Positions 1,008-25,078 of a DNA stretch of 42,645 nucleotides are shown one piece after another. This DNA comes from a bacterium (GTDB taxonomy: Bacteria > Omnitrophota > Gorgyraeia > Duberdicusellales > 4484-171). The stretch spans positions 1-42,645 of the forward strand of contig JAJYOP010000014.1 of assembly GCA_021796115.1 (NCBI GenBank). The letters are read 5' to 3'. The translations under genes and the position numbers were made by a program. Numbering within the stretch: the stretch's first letter is position 1; each line of letters starts with the position of its first letter. Below the pieces are notes generated by a model. That model was not told the origin of the DNA, did not search any database, and worked only from the letters and a program-made list of their open reading frames with translations.

Positions 1008-1067
1008 CACAGATTATCACAGATGAAAATTGTGAGATGTTCACAGATAAAATTATCTGTGATAATT
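1008..1067. repeat. CACAGAT-word inverted repeat, right arm truncated
   Basis: cacagat repeated at left; perfect 10-bp arms tcacagataa (1041-1050) / ttatctgtga (1053-1062). Confidence 0.75.
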
Positions 1068-1099: not shown

Positions 1100-1159
1100 G
1101 TACGAATAGTAAATGAATTTATTTGTGGTAATTCGTTCCAAATTCGTCGTAATTTGTTT
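1100..1159. repeat. ATTCGTG-word element
   Basis: atttgtggtaattcgttccaaattcgtcgtaatttgttt (1121-1159) aligns ungapped to 16394-16432 at about 32/39; words start at 1121, 1131, 1142, 1152. Confidence 0.7.
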
Positions 1160-2477: not shown

Positions 2478-2567
2478 CACAGATGAGCACAGATAAAAAA
2501 TCGCAAGATGATCACAGATAAAATCATCTGTGGTAACCTTGTGATTTGCCATCTGTGGCTGTCTGTG
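2478..2567. repeat. Long imperfect inverted repeat of CACAGAT words
   Basis: 42-nt arms 2478-2519 / 2526-2567, 6-nt spacer aaaatc, about 31/42 arm identity without gaps. Confidence 0.85.
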
Positions 2568-2587
2568 GAAAAAAGGGAGGAAAAAAC

Positions 2588-3046
2588 ATGAAAGAGATTA
2601 CAGGCAATTATTCAGGAAAAGGAAAAAAAATCGCAATCATCATTTCACGTTTTAATGAATTCATCAGCAACGAACTCTTTAGCGGCTGTGTTGATACACT
2701 GAAAAAATCCGGAGTTGACGAAAAAGATTTAACTGCCGTCTGGACTCCCGGCGCATTCGAAATACCGCAAGTTCTTTCTAAAATGGATACAAAAAAATTC
2801 GATGCAGTAATCACTCTGGGAGTTATTATTAGAGGAGATACTCCCCATTTTGATTACATTGCTTCAGAGGTTGCAAAAGGTATTGCGAAAATTTCTTTAG
2901 ATAAAAATGTCCCAATTGCCTTTGGTATTATTACTGCTGAAACAATAGAGCAAGCCATAGAAAGAGCCGGAACAAAGCAAGGCAATAAAGGAAGAGACGT
3001 TGCTCTTATCGCTCTCGAAATGTCCAATATTTATACGCAAATATAG
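2588..3046 (+). CDS. ribH: 6,7-dimethyl-8-ribityllumazine synthase (start moved from 2546 to ATG 2588)
   Basis: ISRFNEFISNELFSG, VWTPGAFEIPQ, GVIIRGDTPHFDYIASEVAKGI, FGIITAETIEQA; gggagg SD. Confidence 0.97.
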   Translation: MKEITGNYSGKGKKIAIIISRFNEFISNELFSGCVDTLKKSGVDEKDLTAVWTPGAFEIPQVLSKMDTKKFDAVITLGVIIRGDTPHFDYIASEVAKGIAKISLDKNVPIAFGIITAETIEQAIERAGTKQGNKGRDVALIALEMSNIYTQI

Positions 3047-4511: not shown

Positions 4512-5596
4512 AGCGGAATAAAAACGATATTTTTTTTCTTAAGCAGGCTTTCCAAATAGCCAAAAAAGCCGAAGGCTTTACTTCCCCAAATCCATTAGTC
4601 GGCGCGCTTATCGTTAAAAATGATAAGATTATTTCGCAAGGATACCATAAAAAAGCCGGATTGGCCCACGCGGAAATCGAAGCGATTAGAAAAGCAAAGC
4701 AAAATTTAAAAGGATCAACGCTTTATATAAATTTAGAACCATGCTGTCATTTCGGTAAAACTCCGCCATGCGTCGATGAAGTTATAAAATCAGGCATAAG
4801 GCGCGCAGTTATTTCTACCGTAGACCCAAACCCAAAGGTATGTAACAATTCTATAAGAAAAATGAAACAGGCAGGTATTAAAGTTAGGCTGGGCTTACTC
4901 CGAAAAGAAGCAGAGAAGCTTAACGAGGTATTCTTTAAGAATATGAAGGAGAATCGGCCTTTTGTGGTTGCTAAATTAGCGCAAACGCTTGATGGAAAAA
5001 TTGCCGCTTCTTCCGGAATTTCAAAATGGATTACCTCTGGATGCAGCCGTAAATTCGCAAAAGGTTTACGCGATAAATACGATTCCGTCGTAGTTGGAAT
5101 CAATACGGTATTAAAAGATAACCCGAAGCTTAACGGCTTAAGAAAAATACCCTACAAAGTGGTAATTGACCCCGATTTACGTATAAACAAAAATATTTTT
5201 ATCGTCAAGCATAATCCGGGGAAGCTGATAGTTTTTATTTCAAAAAAAAATAAATCGAACAAAGTTATAAAAGGAGCCAGAATAATTCCCATAAAGGAGA
5301 GAAAAGGAAGATTAGATTTAAACTCTATGCTGCTTGAGCTGTTTAGATTAGGTATAACCTCCTGTTTTGTCGAAGGCGGGTCGCAGACTTTAGGGAATTT
5401 CTTAGACGCAAAACTTATCGATAAGATGCACTTTTTTATCTCGCCAAAAATATTAGGCGGAAAATATGCGCTTACTTCGATAGGCGCAGAAGGTTATGAA
5501 TCACTCGATAAATGTCCTTATTTGAAAGAACCGGAAATAAAAAAAATAGGCCCGGATATTTTAGTAACCGGTTACCCTTCTTATGACGGAAAATAA
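4508..5596 (+). CDS. ribD: Bifunctional riboflavin deaminase/reductase RibD
   Basis: SPNPLVGALIV, HAEIEAI, NLEPCCHFGKTPPC, AKLAQTLDGKIA, FVEGG; 4-nt overlap with PHP gene. Confidence 0.96.
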   Translation: MKRNKNDIFFLKQAFQIAKKAEGFTSPNPLVGALIVKNDKIISQGYHKKAGLAHAEIEAIRKAKQNLKGSTLYINLEPCCHFGKTPPCVDEVIKSGIRRAVISTVDPNPKVCNNSIRKMKQAGIKVRLGLLRKEAEKLNEVFFKNMKENRPFVVAKLAQTLDGKIAASSGISKWITSGCSRKFAKGLRDKYDSVVVGINTVLKDNPKLNGLRKIPYKVVIDPDLRINKNIFIVKHNPGKLIVFISKKNKSNKVIKGARIIPIKERKGRLDLNSMLLELFRLGITSCFVEGGSQTLGNFLDAKLIDKMHFFISPKILGGKYALTSIGAEGYESLDKCPYLKEPEIKKIGPDILVTGYPSYDGK

Positions 5597-6167
5597 TTTA
5601 TATAAATTAATCATTCGAAGGCGTTCCATAAGGCTTTTTAAGCAGAAAAAAGTTTCCTTTGATATAATCGAAAAGATTATAGATTGCGCTAGGCTCGCGC
5701 CTTCGGCAGCAAATTTGCAATTCATTGATTATTTGGTTGTCGATAAAGATGCTTTAAATAAAAAAGTCTTTGCGGCTTTAACTTTTGCTGCCTATATTTA
5801 TCCAAAACGCACGCCCCCAAATGGTAGAGAACCCACTTTCTACATAATCTTGCTGGTTAATAGGCATCGCACCAAAGAGCCGAATTTACGCGATATCGGA
5901 CTAGCAGCAGAAAACATATTAATTTCTTTGCTCACGTTTAATCTTGGAGGGTGCTGCCTGCAGAATATCGATAAAGACAAAATAAGAAAAGAATTAAAAA
6001 TCAGCGACAATTATGAAATAGATTCTTTAATTGCCGCAGGATATCCGGACGAAGCGCCCAGGCTCGAAACCGATTCTGTGAATGTGAAATATTGGCTCGA
6101 TGATAATGATTGTTTACATGTTCCCAAACGGCCGCTAAAAGATGTTTTACATTACAATAATATATAG
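5583..6167 (+). CDS. Nitroreductase-family flavoprotein
   Basis: IIRRRSIRLFKQKKVS, APSAANLQ, DIGLAAENILISL, AAGYPDEAPR; overlaps the 3' end of ribD by 14 nt. Confidence 0.88.
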   Translation: MTENNLYKLIIRRRSIRLFKQKKVSFDIIEKIIDCARLAPSAANLQFIDYLVVDKDALNKKVFAALTFAAYIYPKRTPPNGREPTFYIILLVNRHRTKEPNLRDIGLAAENILISLLTFNLGGCCLQNIDKDKIRKELKISDNYEIDSLIAAGYPDEAPRLETDSVNVKYWLDDNDCLHVPKRPLKDVLHYNNI

Positions 6168-7484: not shown

Positions 7485-8537
7485 ATGCCGAACGTTTTCT
7501 TTAAAAAAATCGATTACGAAACGCTCCTGAAAAATCCCGAAGAAGTTTTAAAAGGCCTTGAAGCATCGGGTATCGCCGATGACTTTAAGAAAGATCAATT
7601 TACCGGCCTAAAGATTCATTTTGGCGAGAAAGGAAACAAATCCTATATCAACCCCAATTTTCTTCTGCCGCTTGCAAAATTTTTAAAGAAACGCCAGACC
7701 CGGCCTTTTCTTTTTGAAACCAATACTCTTTACCATGGCCAGAGAATGAATACGATAAGCCATATAAATTTAGCTTATAACCATGGTTTTGGAAAACTCG
7801 ATTTACCGATTATTATCGGCGATGGCATAAAAGGCGATGATTATTTAGAGGTAAAGATCGGCAAAAAACATTTTTCAAGTTGTTACCTCGCGTATTCGCT
7901 TAAAGATATTAACTATCTTTTGGTGCTTTCGCATTTAACCGGCCATATGTTAACTGGCTTTGGCGCAGCGGTAAAGAATCTTGGCATGGGTTGTGCGGCA
8001 AGAAGAGGGAAGCTTGCCCAGCATTGTCAGGTTACGCCTTTTATTAATGATAAAAGGTGTGTTGCTTGCGGATTATGTAAAGCTATTTGCCCGGCCATGG
8101 CCATAGAAAAAGGGGAAGCGGCTTGTTTTATCGTTAAAGATAAATGCATCGGTTGTGCCCAGTGTATAAGCGTTTGCCCCACCGGGGCACTGGATGTAGT
8201 TTGGTCGCAAGATTGTAATCTTTTAGGAGAAAAAATGGCCGAATACGCCTATGCCCTAACAAAGAAAGTTAAATGCAGTTATGTAAATTTTTGTCTCTAC
8301 ATTACCAGAGAATGCGATTGTTTGAATAAAGAAGAAAAGGGTTTTATAAAAGATATCGGTATGCTTTTCAGCCGTGATCCAGTGGCAATTGATAAGGCAA
8401 GTCTGGATCTTGTCCTTCGCCAGGAAAATAAAGATATGTTTCTTGAAGCCCATCCAAAAATAGAGTATCTGCACCATCTTCAATATGCCAGTGATATAGG
8501 CTTAGGCAGTTTAGACTACAAGCTTATTGAAATTTAA
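7485..8537 (+). CDS. DUF362 family protein with two 4Fe-4S clusters
   Basis: CVACGLCKAICP and CIGCAQCISVCP; GMGCAARRGKLAQH. Confidence 0.85.
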   Translation: MPNVFFKKIDYETLLKNPEEVLKGLEASGIADDFKKDQFTGLKIHFGEKGNKSYINPNFLLPLAKFLKKRQTRPFLFETNTLYHGQRMNTISHINLAYNHGFGKLDLPIIIGDGIKGDDYLEVKIGKKHFSSCYLAYSLKDINYLLVLSHLTGHMLTGFGAAVKNLGMGCAARRGKLAQHCQVTPFINDKRCVACGLCKAICPAMAIEKGEAACFIVKDKCIGCAQCISVCPTGALDVVWSQDCNLLGEKMAEYAYALTKKVKCSYVNFCLYITRECDCLNKEEKGFIKDIGMLFSRDPVAIDKASLDLVLRQENKDMFLEAHPKIEYLHHLQYASDIGLGSLDYKLIEI

Positions 8538-8560
8538 ATTGAAAATATTAAAATATTTTC

Positions 8561-8646
8561 AACGCAGATTTTCGCAAATCCAACGCAGATTCTCGCAGAT
8601 AAATTAATCTGCGACTATCTGCGTTACATCTGCGACTATCTGCGTT
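8561..8646. repeat. Inverted repeat of CGCAGAT words with 10-11-10 spacing
   Basis: 40-nt arms 8561-8600 / 8607-8646, 33/40 identical without gaps, 6-nt spacer aaatta. Confidence 0.92.
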
Positions 8647-8683
8647 AGAATATCTTCCAATATATATAACTTTAGTACTTGTA

Positions 8684-11600
8684 ATGAATAATAAAATACA
8701 ACTACCCGAAGTTATTGTAGTTGAGGCTTCTGCCGGAAGCGGAAAAACTTTTGCTTTGGCGAAAAGGTATCTCGAACTTGTCTTAAACCCTAACTTTAAA
8801 ACCACCATATTTCCTTTACGTAATATTCTCGCCATTACTTTTACCAACAAAGCAACTATCGAGATGAAAGAAAGGATTTTAGAATTTTTAAAAAGGATTG
8901 CCCTTGATGAATTCAAAAATAAAGAACAGGAAAGCGAAATCTTGGGATCGCTCGGCGTCGATAGAAAAAAGATAAGCGAGTTTGCCGCAAGAACAATGGA
9001 GGCGATTATCGGTAATTATACATTTTTTCAGGTAAAGACCATCGATAGCTTCATTAACGCTATTCTCATGGGCTCGGCATTAAATATCGACAGATCAGCA
9101 CATTTTACGATTAAACATGATTTTGGCAATTATCTTGCCTATTGCCTTGATAACGTTATTGATCTTGCCGCAGAAGACAGCAATTTACTCTTACTTTTCG
9201 AAGATTTTCTTACACACTATTTATTTGTCGAAAACAAAAGCTCGTGGTTTCCCAAAAAAGATATCCTGGAATCCATCCAGGCCTTATTTAAACTGAATAA
9301 TACCTACGGCATACCGTTTTATGTTTATCCGGTATCAGACGAAAGCGTCTTTAAGAAAAAAAGAAAAATATTTAATGACCTCTGCCGCCTTTCGCTAAAT
9401 CTGCCGGAAGAGCTAAATGGCACAGTAAAAAAATCCATACTTAGATTTGCCGCCGGAGAGGAAATTTTCGAACTAAAAAATATCCCGGATAAATTTAAAT
9501 CTCTTGATATTCCAATGAATAAAAACAGAACTGCCACGCCGGCCTTCGAAAAGCTTTGGAAAAATATCCATAAAGAAATATGCGAGTTGGTCGAGCTTGA
9601 CGCAAATGTGATTTATAAGCCGTATATCGAACTTTTCGAAAAAATCTTCGAATGTTTTAATAAAATATGTAAGCACGATGATGTTTTATTTTTGGGCGAA
9701 TTAAATTCCAAAGCAAGATTATTGTTCAGCAAAGAGGGTATAACCATCGCCGAGATTTATTACCGTATGGCGACGCGTTTTAACCATTATTTGATCGATG
9801 AGTTCCAGGATACAAGCCGCCTGCAATGGAAGAACCTTGAGGAGATGGTCAGTGAGGCGTTGTCAACCGGCGGCTCACTTTTTTATGTCGGAGATAAGAA
9901 ACAGGCGATATACCGTTTTCGAGGAGGAGACGCCAGGCTTTTTGATGAGGTCAAAGATGAATTTTCCGGGTATGCCATGACAAAAAATTTAACCAAAAAC
10001 TGGCGCAGCCAAAAAGCCATTGTTGAATTTAACAATAAAATATTCTCTAAAGAAAATATCACAAAGGCAATCGCTTCGATGGATATCGAGGATAATATCA
10101 GCAGCAAGGAGAATTTATTAAAGCATATTCTCGGCGCCTTCAACGATTCCCATGAGGAATCAAGCCCGGATAAACCGTACGGCTATGTGTGCGTTGAGCG
10201 GGTTGAGGAAAGTAAAAAAGAAGAAAGAAATCTGATTATGAAAAAAAAGTTGATTCCGCTTATTGACACATTAAAGACAAGAGGTTTTTCTTATAAAGAC
10301 ATGGCGATTCTTTGCCGCGATAACGAGGAAGTTGAGCTGGTAACTGCCTGGTGCTTGGAAAAAGGCATTTCGGTTGAGTCGGAAAAGACTTTAAGCATAG
10401 AGGAGAACTCTTTAATACAAGAGCTAATTTGTTTTTTAAGATTCCTCTATTCGCCTATCGATGATTTAAGTTTTGCCGTTTTTATTTTAGGTGATATTTT
10501 TACAAAAGCTTCCGGAATTTCACACCAGGAGATAACCGATTTTATCTTTCGCCTGCGCCGGGAAAAAACAAGTGCAAATGAGCTAAGCCTGTATCGGAAT
10601 TTACGCAAATACTATCCGCAAATCTGGAATACATATATCGATGAATTTTTTAAGAGCGTAGGCTTTGTTTCTCCTTATGAACTTGTTGTCAGCATCTACG
10701 AACGTTTTAGCTTGATGGATAATTTTACCGACAATCAGGCATTTTTTATGAAATTTCTCGAACTCATTAAGCAAGAGGAGCAAGAGTATGCTGGATTAGG
10801 GGATTTTCTTTCCTATTTAGATACCGCACAAAAGGAAGAACTCTATGTCAGCGTCGATGAGACTGATTCGATAAATGTTTTGACGATTCATAAAGCAAAA
10901 GGCCTTGAATTCGGAGTGGTAGTTTTACCGTTCTTGCGCATCGATGTTAACGCCGAAACCGGAGAGATGCCCGGTTCCTACATTACTTCCGAAGAAAGTG
11001 CCTGCGGGCTAGTGCGAATTACCAAAGAACATCGAAAATATTCCAAACGGCTTAAAGAAATCTATGAAAAAGCTTACATAGAAGCCTGCCTTAACGAATT
11101 TAATAATTTATATGTTGCGCTGACCCGGGCGAAATTTGAGATGTATATCTATTTGCCGAAAAAAAGCGCTAATTCTGCCAATAAAGCGCGTAATCTAATT
11201 CCGGATGAGATAAGAGAATTCGGCTCCCGGCATGATTATGAGATAAAAAATAAGGCTCTAAGCCCGTCAGTTGTGCTTACGCCTTCACGCTATACCAATT
11301 ACCTTTCGCTTATCGAAGATGAATTCGAAGACCCTGTTTCCCTAAAGAACCGCGAAAAAATTTTGCAGGGAAACATTACACACTATATTCTTTCCTTTAT
11401 TGACGGCAGTTTTGATAAAAATAAAAAAGATATTTTGAGAAATGCTGTCGCTTGCGCAAAAATTAAATACCCTTTTTTTGATAATTTCGATGAAGTAGAA
11501 GGAAGAATAGTCAAACTCCTTAACGACAAAGAGTTTGAGCCTTTCTTTTCTTTAGGCCGGGATAAACTTTACCTTGAAAAAGAAGTGGTAAACCAAAAGG

Positions 11601-11806
11601 GGGATATGAAACGTATCGACCGTTTAATCGTCAAAGAAAAAGAGGCATGGATTATCGATTATAAGAGTTCACATGAAGGCAACGAAAAATATAAAATGCA
11701 GATAAAAGAATATATGGAACTTATCGGCAATATATATGCGCAGAAAAAAATAAGAGCATTTTTATTATATCTTAATGAGATGAAATTCGAAGAAGTGCAT
11801 GGATAA
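8684..11806 (+). CDS. UvrD/REP-family helicase with C-terminal PD-(D/E)XK nuclease (AddA/RecB-like)
   Basis: VEASAGSGKTFALAKRY Walker A, ITFTNKAT, LIDEFQDTSRLQW, YVGDKKQAIYRFRGGD, LTKNWRS, VLTIHKAKGLEF, ALTRAK, IIDYKSS. Confidence 0.9.
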   Translation: MNNKIQLPEVIVVEASAGSGKTFALAKRYLELVLNPNFKTTIFPLRNILAITFTNKATIEMKERILEFLKRIALDEFKNKEQESEILGSLGVDRKKISEFAARTMEAIIGNYTFFQVKTIDSFINAILMGSALNIDRSAHFTIKHDFGNYLAYCLDNVIDLAAEDSNLLLLFEDFLTHYLFVENKSSWFPKKDILESIQALFKLNNTYGIPFYVYPVSDESVFKKKRKIFNDLCRLSLNLPEELNGTVKKSILRFAAGEEIFELKNIPDKFKSLDIPMNKNRTATPAFEKLWKNIHKEICELVELDANVIYKPYIELFEKIFECFNKICKHDDVLFLGELNSKARLLFSKEGITIAEIYYRMATRFNHYLIDEFQDTSRLQWKNLEEMVSEALSTGGSLFYVGDKKQAIYRFRGGDARLFDEVKDEFSGYAMTKNLTKNWRSQKAIVEFNNKIFSKENITKAIASMDIEDNISSKENLLKHILGAFNDSHEESSPDKPYGYVCVERVEESKKEERNLIMKKKLIPLIDTLKTRGFSYKDMAILCRDNEEVELVTAWCLEKGISVESEKTLSIEENSLIQELICFLRFLYSPIDDLSFAVFILGDIFTKASGISHQEITDFIFRLRREKTSANELSLYRNLRKYYPQIWNTYIDEFFKSVGFVSPYELVVSIYERFSLMDNFTDNQAFFMKFLELIKQEEQEYAGLGDFLSYLDTAQKEELYVSVDETDSINVLTIHKAKGLEFGVVVLPFLRIDVNAETGEMPGSYITSEESACGLVRITKEHRKYSKRLKEIYEKAYIEACLNEFNNLYVALTRAKFEMYIYLPKKSANSANKARNLIPDEIREFGSRHDYEIKNKALSPSVVLTPSRYTNYLSLIEDEFEDPVSLKNREKILQGNITHYILSFIDGSFDKNKKDILRNAVACAKIKYPFFDNFDEVEGRIVKLLNDKEFEPFFSLGRDKLYLEKEVVNQKGDMKRIDRLIVKEKEAWIIDYKSSHEGNEKYKMQIKEYMELIGNIYAQKKIRAFLLYLNEMKFEEVHG

Positions 11807-14757: not shown

Positions 14758-16353
14758 TTGAAAAATATGGAAAAATTAGCCGGATTCAAAAAACTTGGAC
14801 TTTCCGATAACTGTCTAGAAGCCCTCTTGAAGAAGGGTTTTGAAGAACCAACGCAGATACAGAAGATGATTATCCCGATTTTTCTTGCGAAGGATGTCGA
14901 TATCATCGGCCAGGCCCAGACCGGTACCGGAAAAACTGCGGCTTTTGGCCTTCCGCTGATAGAGAAACTAAAAGGCGGCTCGCGCACCCCGCAAGTTTTA
15001 ATCCTTACGCCGACAAGAGAACTGGCTCTTCAGGTTGCGCAGGAGATAAATTCCTTAAAAGGGAATAAAGATATTCAAATTGCGGCAGTCTATGGCGGCC
15101 AGTCTATTGAAGAGCAATTAAGGAGACTGCATCGCGGTGTTGACATTGTTGTCGGAACTCCGGGAAGGATTCTTGACCATCTCTCCCGTAGGAGTCTTCA
15201 TCTTCAGGATATCTCCCATATGATACTTGACGAAGCTGATGAAATGCTCGATATGGGCTTTATTGATGATGTTGAAGAGATATTAAAACACACAAACAAG
15301 AACAAAAGGATATTACTTTTTTCAGCAACCATACCTCAAAGGATAGTCAGCCTGGCTCAAAAATATATGCGCCAGTATGAAATTGTCAGGGTAACGCCCG
15401 AGCAGTTGACAACTTCTCTTACCGACCAGATATATTTTGAAGTTGCCTATTCGGATAAATTTGAAGCGCTTTGCCGCATTATCGATGTGGAGCATGAATT
15501 CTATGGTCTTGTTTTCTGCCGCACAAAAATCGACGTTGATGAAATCGCAAAAAAACTTATCGATAACGGTTATGCCGCCGAGGCTTTGCACGGCGATGTA
15601 TCGCAATATCAAAGGGAGCGCATTCTTGATAAATTTAAGAAAAAAAGAATCAATGTCCTGGTTGCAACCGACGTTGCCGCAAGAGGAATCGACATCGCCA
15701 ATCTTACGCATGTCATTAATTATTCGTTGCCGCAGGATCCGGAATCGTATGTGCATAGAATCGGTCGTACCGGTAGAGCCGGAAAAGAAGGAACCGCTAT
15801 AACTTTTATTACACCTGATGAATACCGGAAACTTGTCTTTATAAAAAAAATCGCCAAAACCAATATCAGAAGAGAAAAATTACCTGGCATTGCGGAGATT
15901 ATTCAGACAAAAAGAAAAAAGATAAAAGAAAGATTGAGCGCAATACTTGAATCCGACGCTTATACCGATTATTTAAGCCTTGCCGATGATATGCTCAAAG
16001 AGCGTGATGCGCAAAAGGTGCTTGCGGCCATACTTAAATATACCTTTGGCGATGAGCTTGATGAAAAAAGCTACAACGAAATAAAAGATGTTTCCGTAAA
16101 CACCAAAGGCAAAGCCCGCCTTTTTGTCGCGCTTGGCAGCATAGACCGTATTAATCCGCATAAGCTGGCTGAATTTATAAAAGAAAAAACCCATATTGAC
16201 AGCCGCAAGATCCAAGATATACGAATATTCGAAAATTTTTCTTTTATCACCGTTCCTTTTGAAGAAGCTGAAATAATCATTCAGACTTTTAAAAAGTTAA
16301 AGACCGGCAAAAGGCCGATCGTTGAAAGAGCAAGAGAGAGAACGCACAAATAA
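14758..16353 (+). CDS. DEAD-box RNA helicase with DbpA-type C-terminal domain
   Basis: AQTGTGKTAAFGLP, PTRELALQ, DEADEML, SAT, HRIGRTGRAG; C-terminal KARLFVALGSIDRINPHKLAEFI. Start at TTG 14758 or ATG 14767. Confidence 0.93.
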   Translation: MKNMEKLAGFKKLGLSDNCLEALLKKGFEEPTQIQKMIIPIFLAKDVDIIGQAQTGTGKTAAFGLPLIEKLKGGSRTPQVLILTPTRELALQVAQEINSLKGNKDIQIAAVYGGQSIEEQLRRLHRGVDIVVGTPGRILDHLSRRSLHLQDISHMILDEADEMLDMGFIDDVEEILKHTNKNKRILLFSATIPQRIVSLAQKYMRQYEIVRVTPEQLTTSLTDQIYFEVAYSDKFEALCRIIDVEHEFYGLVFCRTKIDVDEIAKKLIDNGYAAEALHGDVSQYQRERILDKFKKKRINVLVATDVAARGIDIANLTHVINYSLPQDPESYVHRIGRTGRAGKEGTAITFITPDEYRKLVFIKKIAKTNIRREKLPGIAEIIQTKRKKIKERLSAILESDAYTDYLSLADDMLKERDAQKVLAAILKYTFGDELDEKSYNEIKDVSVNTKGKARLFVALGSIDRINPHKLAEFIKEKTHIDSRKIQDIRIFENFSFITVPFEEAEIIIQTFKKLKTGKRPIVERARERTHK

Positions 16354-16432
16354 CTACGGATTAAAAACGGATTTCCACGAATGAAGATGATTTATTCGTG
16401 GTAATTCATTTCAAATTCGTAGCAATTCGTGT
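16354..16432. repeat. ATTCGTG-word inverted repeat abutting the pyruvate kinase start
   Basis: 29-nt arms 16354-16382 / 16394-16422, 23/29 identical; words at 16394, 16404, 16415, 16425 (10-11-10). Confidence 0.88.
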
Positions 16433-23102: not shown

Positions 23103-23483
23103 ATGGCTACTCTTAAATTTTCTAAAACGCATGAATGGGCAAAAATAGATGCAAATATAGCGGTAATCGGAATAAGCGACCATGCGCAAAAAGCATTGGG
23201 AGACATTGTTTTTATAGAGCTGCCGAAAATTGGCGCAAAGCTTAAAGCCAATGCGCAATTCGGCACAATCGAATCAACTAAGGCTGCCAGTGAGCTTTAT
23301 TCGCCTTTGAGCGGAGAGGTTACCGAAATTAATAAAGAACTGCTCAATAACCCACAGTGGGTTAATGAATCGCCTTTTGAGCGCGGTTGGATGATTAAAA
23401 TTAAAGTAGAAAATAGCAACGAACCATCCAGCCTGATGGATGAAGCAGTCTATAAAGAATTTGCCGCCAAAGAAGCCCATTAA
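23103..23483 (+). CDS. gcvH: Glycine cleavage system H protein
   Basis: KTHEWAKI, GISDHAQKALGDIVFIELP, IESTKAASELYSPLSGEV with lipoyl Lys. Confidence 0.97.
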   Translation: MATLKFSKTHEWAKIDANIAVIGISDHAQKALGDIVFIELPKIGAKLKANAQFGTIESTKAASELYSPLSGEVTEINKELLNNPQWVNESPFERGWMIKIKVENSNEPSSLMDEAVYKEFAAKEAH

Positions 23484-23486
23484 TAA

Positions 23487-23735
23487 ATGAAATTCCAAAT
23501 CACAAATTCTCCACCAGAGGCGAGGCCGCCCACATATAAAAATATATCAGTGGCGGACAAGCACCAAATAAATTCCCATGACCAAAATTCCAATGTTCTA
23601 AACATAAATCGTTTTGGTCATTTGAACATTGGAGCTTGGAAGTTATTTGGCATTTGTCCTTCGACTACGCTTGAGGACAACCCTGAGCGAGTGAAAACGA
23701 GTTGAAGGGTTGGTGCTTGGAAATTAGAATTTTTT
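23487..23735. repeat. Composite/nested repeat region between gcvH and gcvPA
   Basis: CCAAAT-word element; ATGACCAAAA 23578-23587/TTTTGGTCAT 23612-23621; CCAATGTTC 23590-23598/GAACATTGG 23624-23632; separate CCTTCGAC...GTTGAAGG palindrome 23658-23708 inside it. Confidence 0.82.
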
Positions 23736-23740
23736 AAATT

Positions 23741-25078
23741 ATGCCATACATTCTAAATACAGAAAAAGATATCAAAGAGATGTTGACTACGATAGGCATA
23801 TCGAGCCTTGATGATTTATACCGGCATCTTCCAAACCAAATCAAAATTAATAAAAAGTTAAACCTTCCATCAGGATTATCCGAACAGGAATTAAGAAGTT
23901 TTATTATTGCTTTAGCGGCAAAAAATAAAACCATAAACGAGTTCAACTCATTTTTAGGCGCCGGCTCTTACAAGCATTATGTACCTTCAGCGTTGAACTC
24001 AATAATTTCCCGTGCTGAATTTCTAACTGCCTATACGCCTTATCAGGCGGAATGTTCGCAGGGGATTTTGCAGGCAATTTATGAATACCAGAGTTATATC
24101 TGTCTTTTGACCGGCATGGATGTTTCAAATGCGTCTTTATTCGACGGAGGAAGCAGCTTGGCAGAAAGCATATTGATGTCGTTAAGAGTAACTCAGCGTA
24201 AAAAAGTTATTATATCTTCGGCAATCCATCCCGAATACAAGAGAACGATTTATACATATTTAAGCGGTTTTAATTTTAAGATCCAGGAAATAAATTTTGA
24301 CCAACAAGGTTTAACCGACATAAATCAGTTAACTGCAGATGGTGATACAGCTTGTATTGCGATACAGAGCCCGAATTTTTTTGGTATCATCGAAAAGCTA
24401 GGCAAAATTTCTTCTCTGGCAAAAGAAAAAGGCGCTTTAGTGATACAAGTCGCAAATCCGGTGAGCCTGGCAATTTTGAAAGAACCGGCTGCTCAGGGAG
24501 TTGATATTGTTTGCGGTGACGGACAGGCCTTGGGCGGATTTTTAAGTTTTGGCGGACCGAGTTTTGGTTTTATTGCAACAAAGAATGAATTCTTGCGCCA
24601 GCTGCCCGGCCGCATCGTCGGTAAAAGTACGGATAAAGAAGGCAAAACCGCATACTGCCTTACCATCCAGGCCAGAGAGCAGCATATCAAAAGAGAAAGA
24701 GCGACAAGCAATATCTGTTCTAACCAGTCTCTGAATGCGATTTCTGCGGCAATATACTTATCTTTGATGGGTAAGGAGGGCTTATACGATTGCGCTTTGT
24801 ATTCATTGAACTTAGCGCATTATTTGCACGGCCGGATTAGTGAAGTCAAAGGTGTAAAAATTAATTTTTCTAATAATTTTTTCAATGAGTTTGTCTGGAA
24901 TGTAGAAAATCAGAAAACTGTAATAAAAAAATTGTATAAAAAAGGAATAATTTCCGGATTAGCGCTGAGTAAATTTTATCCGGGACTTAAAGGCGGCATA
25001 TTAAGCTGTTGTACGGAAACAAAAAGTAGAGCCCAAATCGATGAGTTTATCGAAACACTAAAAACTATTCTAAATTAA
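23741..25078 (+). CDS. gcvPA: Glycine dehydrogenase (decarboxylating) subunit 1
   Basis: FLGAGSYKHYVPSALN, TAYTPYQAECSQGILQAIYEYQSYIC.LTGMDVSNASL, GKSTDKEGKTAYCLTIQAREQHIKRERATSNICSNQSL. Confidence 0.96.
   Translation: MPYILNTEKDIKEMLTTIGISSLDDLYRHLPNQIKINKKLNLPSGLSEQELRSFIIALAAKNKTINEFNSFLGAGSYKHYVPSALNSIISRAEFLTAYTPYQAECSQGILQAIYEYQSYICLLTGMDVSNASLFDGGSSLAESILMSLRVTQRKKVIISSAIHPEYKRTIYTYLSGFNFKIQEINFDQQGLTDINQLTADGDTACIAIQSPNFFGIIEKLGKISSLAKEKGALVIQVANPVSLAILKEPAAQGVDIVCGDGQALGGFLSFGGPSFGFIATKNEFLRQLPGRIVGKSTDKEGKTAYCLTIQAREQHIKRERATSNICSNQSLNAISAAIYLSLMGKEGLYDCALYSLNLAHYLHGRISEVKGVKINFSNNFFNEFVWNVENQKTVIKKLYKKGIISGLALSKFYPGLKGGILSCCTETKSRAQIDEFIETLKTILN

Follow-up and report, generated by a model that had tools for sequence, protein, structure and literature searches.

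A helically phased intergenic palindrome of Omnitrophota as a probably mobile repeat dispersed in bacteria and archaea

An imperfect palindrome made of recurring CGCAGAT words lies between a DUF362 gene and an AddA-like gene of an Omnitrophota bacterium, raising the question of what such an element is and how it came to occupy this gap. It is one copy of a large, dispersed family of short intergenic repeats in bacteria and archaea. The family is probably mobile and apparently has no name; a search of the open-licence literature for the exact word pairs gave no match. With moderate confidence, we favor the reading that 8561-8646 is a non-autonomous mobile palindromic repeat with MITE- or REPIN-like behavior, whose phased words would be recognized by a putative DNA-binding recombinase or transposase acting in trans.

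The palindrome and its copies in one genome

An exhaustive ungapped search with 40-nt arms returned 8561-8646 as the best palindrome of the window (the whole stretch of 42,645 nt that was analyzed), with a loop of 6 nt and 33/40 arm matches, the coordinates and arm identity being exactly those given in an earlier note on this DNA. When the window was replaced by 12 first-order Markov sequences modeled on it, the best palindromes reached only 23-25 matches, and a repeat finder delimited the two 43-nt arms listed in Table 1, which are 81% complementary. Words are spaced 10-11-10 nt in both arms. The earlier description of four copies of one word per arm is therefore correct as to spacing and inexact as to identity, since the left arm holds three exact words and one variant, its second word being CGCAAAT. 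Likewise, equating the palindrome with the whole intergenic gap was an overstatement, as it covers 86/146 nt. Its neighbors are co-directional, with a DUF362 protein gene on one side and, on the other, a UvrD-type helicase followed by a PD-(D/E)XK protein, resembling AddAB.

The RNA fold of this segment is very stable, at -47.8 kcal/mol (z -10.6) on the plus strand and -57.9 kcal/mol on the minus strand; the latter is stronger because CGCAAAT and ATCTGCG meet there in a G.U pair, in place of the A.C contact of the plus strand. Such a fold between co-directional genes would suit an RNA hairpin that stabilizes or attenuates the DUF362-AddA transcript, but we consider this reading highly improbable. 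A search of 8400-8800 for a GC-rich stem with a T-run found no intrinsic terminator and no U-tract, bearing out the decision of the earlier note to set a simple terminator aside, and the window contained no Rfam 15 match above the gathering score. Furthermore, asymmetric elements are strand-neutral, with 12 in one orientation to the genes and 9 in the other. Placement between co-directional genes, seen for 21/21 elements, was dropped as evidence because the background of the same genome is equally co-directional (142/159 gaps).

Scanning the genome that contains the window (1.72 Mb, 88% complete) identified 14 exact CGCAGATNNNCGCAGAT and 83 CRCRGATNNNCRCRGAT matches, with none in the reversed control; the element is thus not the only copy, a point on which the earlier interpretation depended. 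Three sub-families were distinguished, and their words all match CRCRRAT. Sub-family A (CGCAGAT) occupies about 11 places, where several copies begin 1-6 nt from a stop codon and end shortly before the Shine-Dalgarno sequence of the next gene. Sub-family B (CACAGAT) is either compact or has its arms separated by 200-300 bp that contain another palindrome, while sub-family C uses the word ACGAAT.

Table 1. Positions of the palindrome and of related repeats; those without a prefix refer to the window
Feature	Position	Strand	Description
Left arm	8561..8603	+	AACGCAGAT TTT CGCAAAT CC AACGCAGAT TCT CGCAGAT AAA; word starts 8563, 8573, 8584, 8594
Right arm	8604..8646	-	TTA ATCTGCG ACT ATCTGCGTTAC ATCTGCG ACT ATCTGCGTT; word starts 8607, 8617, 8628, 8638
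Loop, with innermost words on either side	8601..8606	.	AAATTA
Intergenic region	8538..8683	.	146 nt, palindrome 86 nt; DUF362 gene (7485-8537) on one side, AddA-like UvrD helicase gene (8684-11806) on the other
CACAGAT sub-family element, related	2478..2567	.	between two co-directional genes
CACAGAT sub-family element, shorter	1008..1061	.	
ACGAAT/ATTCGT sub-family palindrome	16353..16430	.	second-best of window, 30/40; words 10-11-10
ATTYGT words, single array	1119..1156	-	10-11-10; partner arm weak
Wide-arm CACAGAT elements, same genome	C6:25305-25590, C6:32572-32906, C14:20827-21112, C40:6845-7152, C42:9702-10011		enclose AATTCCAA-type palindrome
Nested palindromic repeats	L184 about 5576-5700 (same genome, C6 near 56086); window 23480-23745		

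Helical phasing and spread across phyla

To measure the spacing, CGCAGAT pairs were collected genome-wide with the unbiased pattern CGCAGATN{0,26}CGCAGAT. The 27 pairs had distances of 10 (14 pairs), 11 (2), 21 (7), 30-31 (3) and 27 nt (1), so that 26/27 lie at 10, 11, 21 or 30-31 nt; the reversed control in this genome gave none. The word-agnostic scan proposed in the earlier note also works, given that ACGAAT follows the same plan: its 36 pairs (reversed control, 17) are spaced by 10 (14), 11 (9), 12 (3), 20-22 (6), 31-32 (3) and 25 nt (1), placing 35/36 at 10-12, 20-22 or 30-32 nt, and three perfect 10-11-10 arrays occur. The best periods are 10.25 for CGCAGAT and 10.65 for ACGAAT, with period strengths R of 0.91 and 0.88, where 2000 uniform draws gave at most 0.71 and 0.63. 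The copies behind these counts are related by descent and hence are not independent events, yet one rule is common to two words. With that shared ancestry in mind, the 10-11-10 spacing departs strongly from chance, and the pair distances of both words support the helix-phased array originally described. Words set so evenly suggest an element read by a protein from one face of the helix.

The arms are conserved unevenly. Across 29 oriented Omnitrophota copies, word positions carry near 2 bits, partly imposed by the search pattern, and spacers carry 0.2-1.3 bits. In oriented Omnitrophota copies, facing spacers are less complementary than spacers re-paired between copies, both for the outer (0.15 vs 0.35, P<0.0003) and for the inner positions (0.28 vs 0.39, P=0.005); the oriented test was relied on, as an unoriented one may be inflated by mixed orientations. 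This deficit holds for copies from outside DeMMO4 (P=0.036 and 0.019) and was not seen in Acidobacteria or cyanobacteria. Recognition may require the interruptions, or else long perfect palindromes may tend to be lost; we infer the second as the favored explanation.

Helical phasing with two different words, together with conserved words and free spacers, would also be expected of a host binding site under selection, with the phased words recognized by a nucleoid protein, a gyrase-type protein or a regulator in a BIME-like chromosome function. The avoidance of divergent gene pairs by the elements in cyanobacteria (P=0.04) points the same way. However, the distribution makes such a role unlikely: within Candidatus Omnitrophota the word pair is patchy, occurring in 36/286 genomes, and the orthologous gap of relatives has no palindrome. 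More precisely, the upstream DNA examined at AddA orthologues of relatives contained none, with some contigs ending early, and in one relative (G199) three words lie about 600 nt upstream of its AddA orthologue. On this evidence the copy is lineage-specific, which also counts in favor of the mobile-repeat reading. AddA is only about 55% identical within the genus itself. A Microcoleus copy that decays, collapses or gives way to another repeat, described below, likewise argues against a host site.

Beyond the phylum, a strict hairpin pattern applied to one genome per species, which gives a lower bound, matched at least Omnitrophota, Acidobacteria, Cyanobacteria, Bacteroidota, Chloroflexi, Latescibacterota, Verrucomicrobia, Lentisphaerae, Planctomycetes, Proteobacteria and archaea. 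Between 3 and 220 word pairs were counted in each of seventeen named genomes (control, 0-1), among them an Acidobacteria MAG (220), Bacteroides sp. An322 (134), Methanoperedens (71) and Phocaeicola intestinalis (65). BLAST found no copies in plasmids or phages, and the strict pattern found none in viral contigs. The Omnitrophota copies yield an asymmetric eight-word consensus, AACGCAGATnnnCGCAAATcnAACGCAGATnnnCGCAGAT-loop-ATCTGCGnnnATCTGCGTGYAATCTGCGnnnATCTGCGTT, which was found again in several Omnitrophota genomes, one of another class, and this sharing indicates homology rather than convergence. Separately, in Methanoperedens (L245, L248, L251), further phased words of like style, such as ACACGGAT, form palindromes beside or between CGCAGAT arms.

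Mobility and comparison with known repeats

Mobility of the palindromic repeat is reasonably supported, with evidence from the Omnitrophota genome DeMMO4_15. Elements of 134-160 bp in this genome have the palindrome as their core and AGCCAATTTAAGAACTA / TAGTTRTTAAATCRSC as their ends; 22 complete ones are bordered by target duplications of about 10 bp, whose identity is 7.8/10 vs 5.2 when cross-paired (P<=0.0002). The outer ends AGCCAATTTAAGAACTA occur in about 57 copies in 0.8 Mb of this genome (G296, L336-L365) and in 0-2 copies in each of 127 relatives of its order, so that the shell may be a distinct MITE that has picked up the palindrome. The AGCCAATTTAAGAACTA-ended MITE is very dense in DeMMO4_15, and its amplification is probably recent. 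No target duplication was found for 8 A-type and 11 B-type copies in the genome of the window or in other phyla, no arrays flanked a transposase gene among the loci examined, and no autonomous element with DeMMO4 ends was present in 128 genomes of that order. An ORF between facing arrays was considered as an autonomous partner and rejected, as it encodes acylphosphatase and is an ordinary gene.

The repeat works like a MITE or a REPIN and, in the genome of the window, corresponds in full to neither definition. Like MITEs, it is short (86 bp in the window), multicopy (83 word pairs in the genome) and without coding capacity; terminal inverted repeats and target-site duplications were both found in DeMMO4_15 and were not seen in the genome of the window or in other phyla. 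The DeMMO4_15 element resembles bacterial MITEs further in its length of 134-160 bp, its 10-bp duplications, the lack of an ORF and its dozens of copies. Unlike MITEs, the phased repeat has no autonomous partner that was found, its core is common to many phyla, and outside DeMMO4_15 it shows neither target duplication nor conserved ends beyond the word palindrome. ERIC and enterobacterial repeat units (RU) measure about 100-170 bp and, to our knowledge, contain no 10-bp word array. The phased repeat appears to differ from them in sequence and host range. It shares with them an intergenic, MITE-like character (PMC2759123). Intrinsic (rho-independent) terminators are similar in placing a stable hairpin after a stop codon, whereas the phased repeat lacks a U-tract, is strand-neutral and, in sister copies, is often followed immediately by the Shine-Dalgarno sequence of the next gene.

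The repeat also resembles REP/REPIN sequences with TnpA-REP (RAYT), which are likewise short, imperfect intergenic palindromes with many copies and interrupted stems, without target duplication in most genomes; the genome of the window likewise has many intergenic, hairpin-forming copies with an interrupted stem. A true REP/REPIN, moved as a single-stranded hairpin by a TnpA-REP/RAYT-type Y1 (HUH) tyrosine transposase, would account for the size, the intergenic spread, the interrupted imperfect palindrome and the lack of target duplication in this genome (PMC3116915, PMC8266576), which also has one Y1_Tnp gene. Nevertheless, we regard this identity as improbable. Published REPs have a conserved tetranucleotide, in most cases GTAG, in front of the palindrome (PMC8266576), and their cognate Y1 transposase gene is flanked by repeats (PMC3116915), but GTAG is absent at either foot of 8561-8646 and no phased words occur at the Y1 locus of the same genome. 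Across array-bearing genomes, only 3/30 Y1 loci had phased words in the stretch examined, and the array-rich Bacteroides An322 and Phocaeicola intestinalis lack any Y1_Tnp match. The phased repeat further differs from REP/REPIN in its longer arms of 2-4 phased words, the absence of GTAG and of an associated Y1 gene, and the presence of the same words in many phyla and archaea.

Returning to the favored reading of a non-autonomous mobile repeat, the arms would be arrays of a seven-base CRCRRAT-type word about 10.4 bp apart, a spacing that would bring all words onto one face of B-DNA. A putative trans-acting recombinase or transposase would recognize these words and copy the element into intergenic gaps, where it would seemingly be mostly neutral and could lose 10-nt units by slippage. 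We infer this protein, its binding mode and movement of the window copy by the same route as in DeMMO4_15. A broader and more tentative idea, which we hold to be possible although the balance lies against it, is a superfamily of mobile palindromes, so far without a name, across bacteria and archaea. It would be defined not by one sequence but by a blueprint of 2-4 CRCRRAT-type words in each arm, spaced by the helical pitch, with words alike within an element and facing spacers unpaired in Omnitrophota, and be moved by a new class of recombinase reading phased words on one DNA face. If the reading as a mobile repeat is right, a common short repeat of environmental genomes would have a mobilizing enzyme that crosses the divide between bacteria and archaea and reads helically phased sites, and a class of intergenic palindromes ignored by annotation pipelines would be accounted for. 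Cultured array-rich hosts (Bacteroides sp. An322, Phocaeicola intestinalis and Methylophaga sp. OBS4) make this reading testable.

Fate after insertion and nested repeats

The later history of a copy was followed at a single site, one convergent intergenic slot orthologous in 30 Microcoleus genomes. The palindrome is present there in at least six genomes, is one 10-nt unit shorter in L258, has collapsed in L264 and L266, and is replaced by an unrelated GGGAATAGGG/CCCTATTCCC hairpin repeat in L279, L282 and L284, which belong to other species. Of the 16 changes that six full copies show at paired positions, 15 disrupt the pairing, and the rate of change is equal for paired and unpaired positions (3.7% and 3.6%), which indicates a structure without visible selection at this one site. 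Such loss of pairs, together with the orientation counts given above, disfavors the long RNA hairpin that the earlier note had offered as a functional form.

The loss of a 10-nt unit and the collapse of the palindrome at this slot are what local replication slippage and template switching at hairpins would produce, and the elements might be such products, devoid of mobility and function. We find this very unlikely as a general account: slippage alone does not yield dispersed homologous copies, yet several Omnitrophota genomes, one of them from another class, share the same asymmetric eight-word consensus, and some elements have inverted ends and target duplications.

Slots such as the one in Microcoleus look like repeat hot spots. 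Repeats are also found within one another in the genome of the window, where the widely spaced CACAGAT arms enclose a AATTCCAA-type palindrome, as if it had been inserted at the hairpin apex, and one A copy (L023/L184) contains another repeat, CCGCC..GGCGG. Further palindromic repeats (CCGCCACTGATATATTTTTATATGTGGGCGG..., AATTCCAA..TTGGAATT and CTTCGACT..AGTCGAAG) are nested mutually and within word-array elements. Additionally, a listed ORF with a TTG start at 2546 (window 2546-2590) overlaps the CACAGAT palindrome; its true start is more likely the ATG downstream, after AAAAAAGGGAGG.
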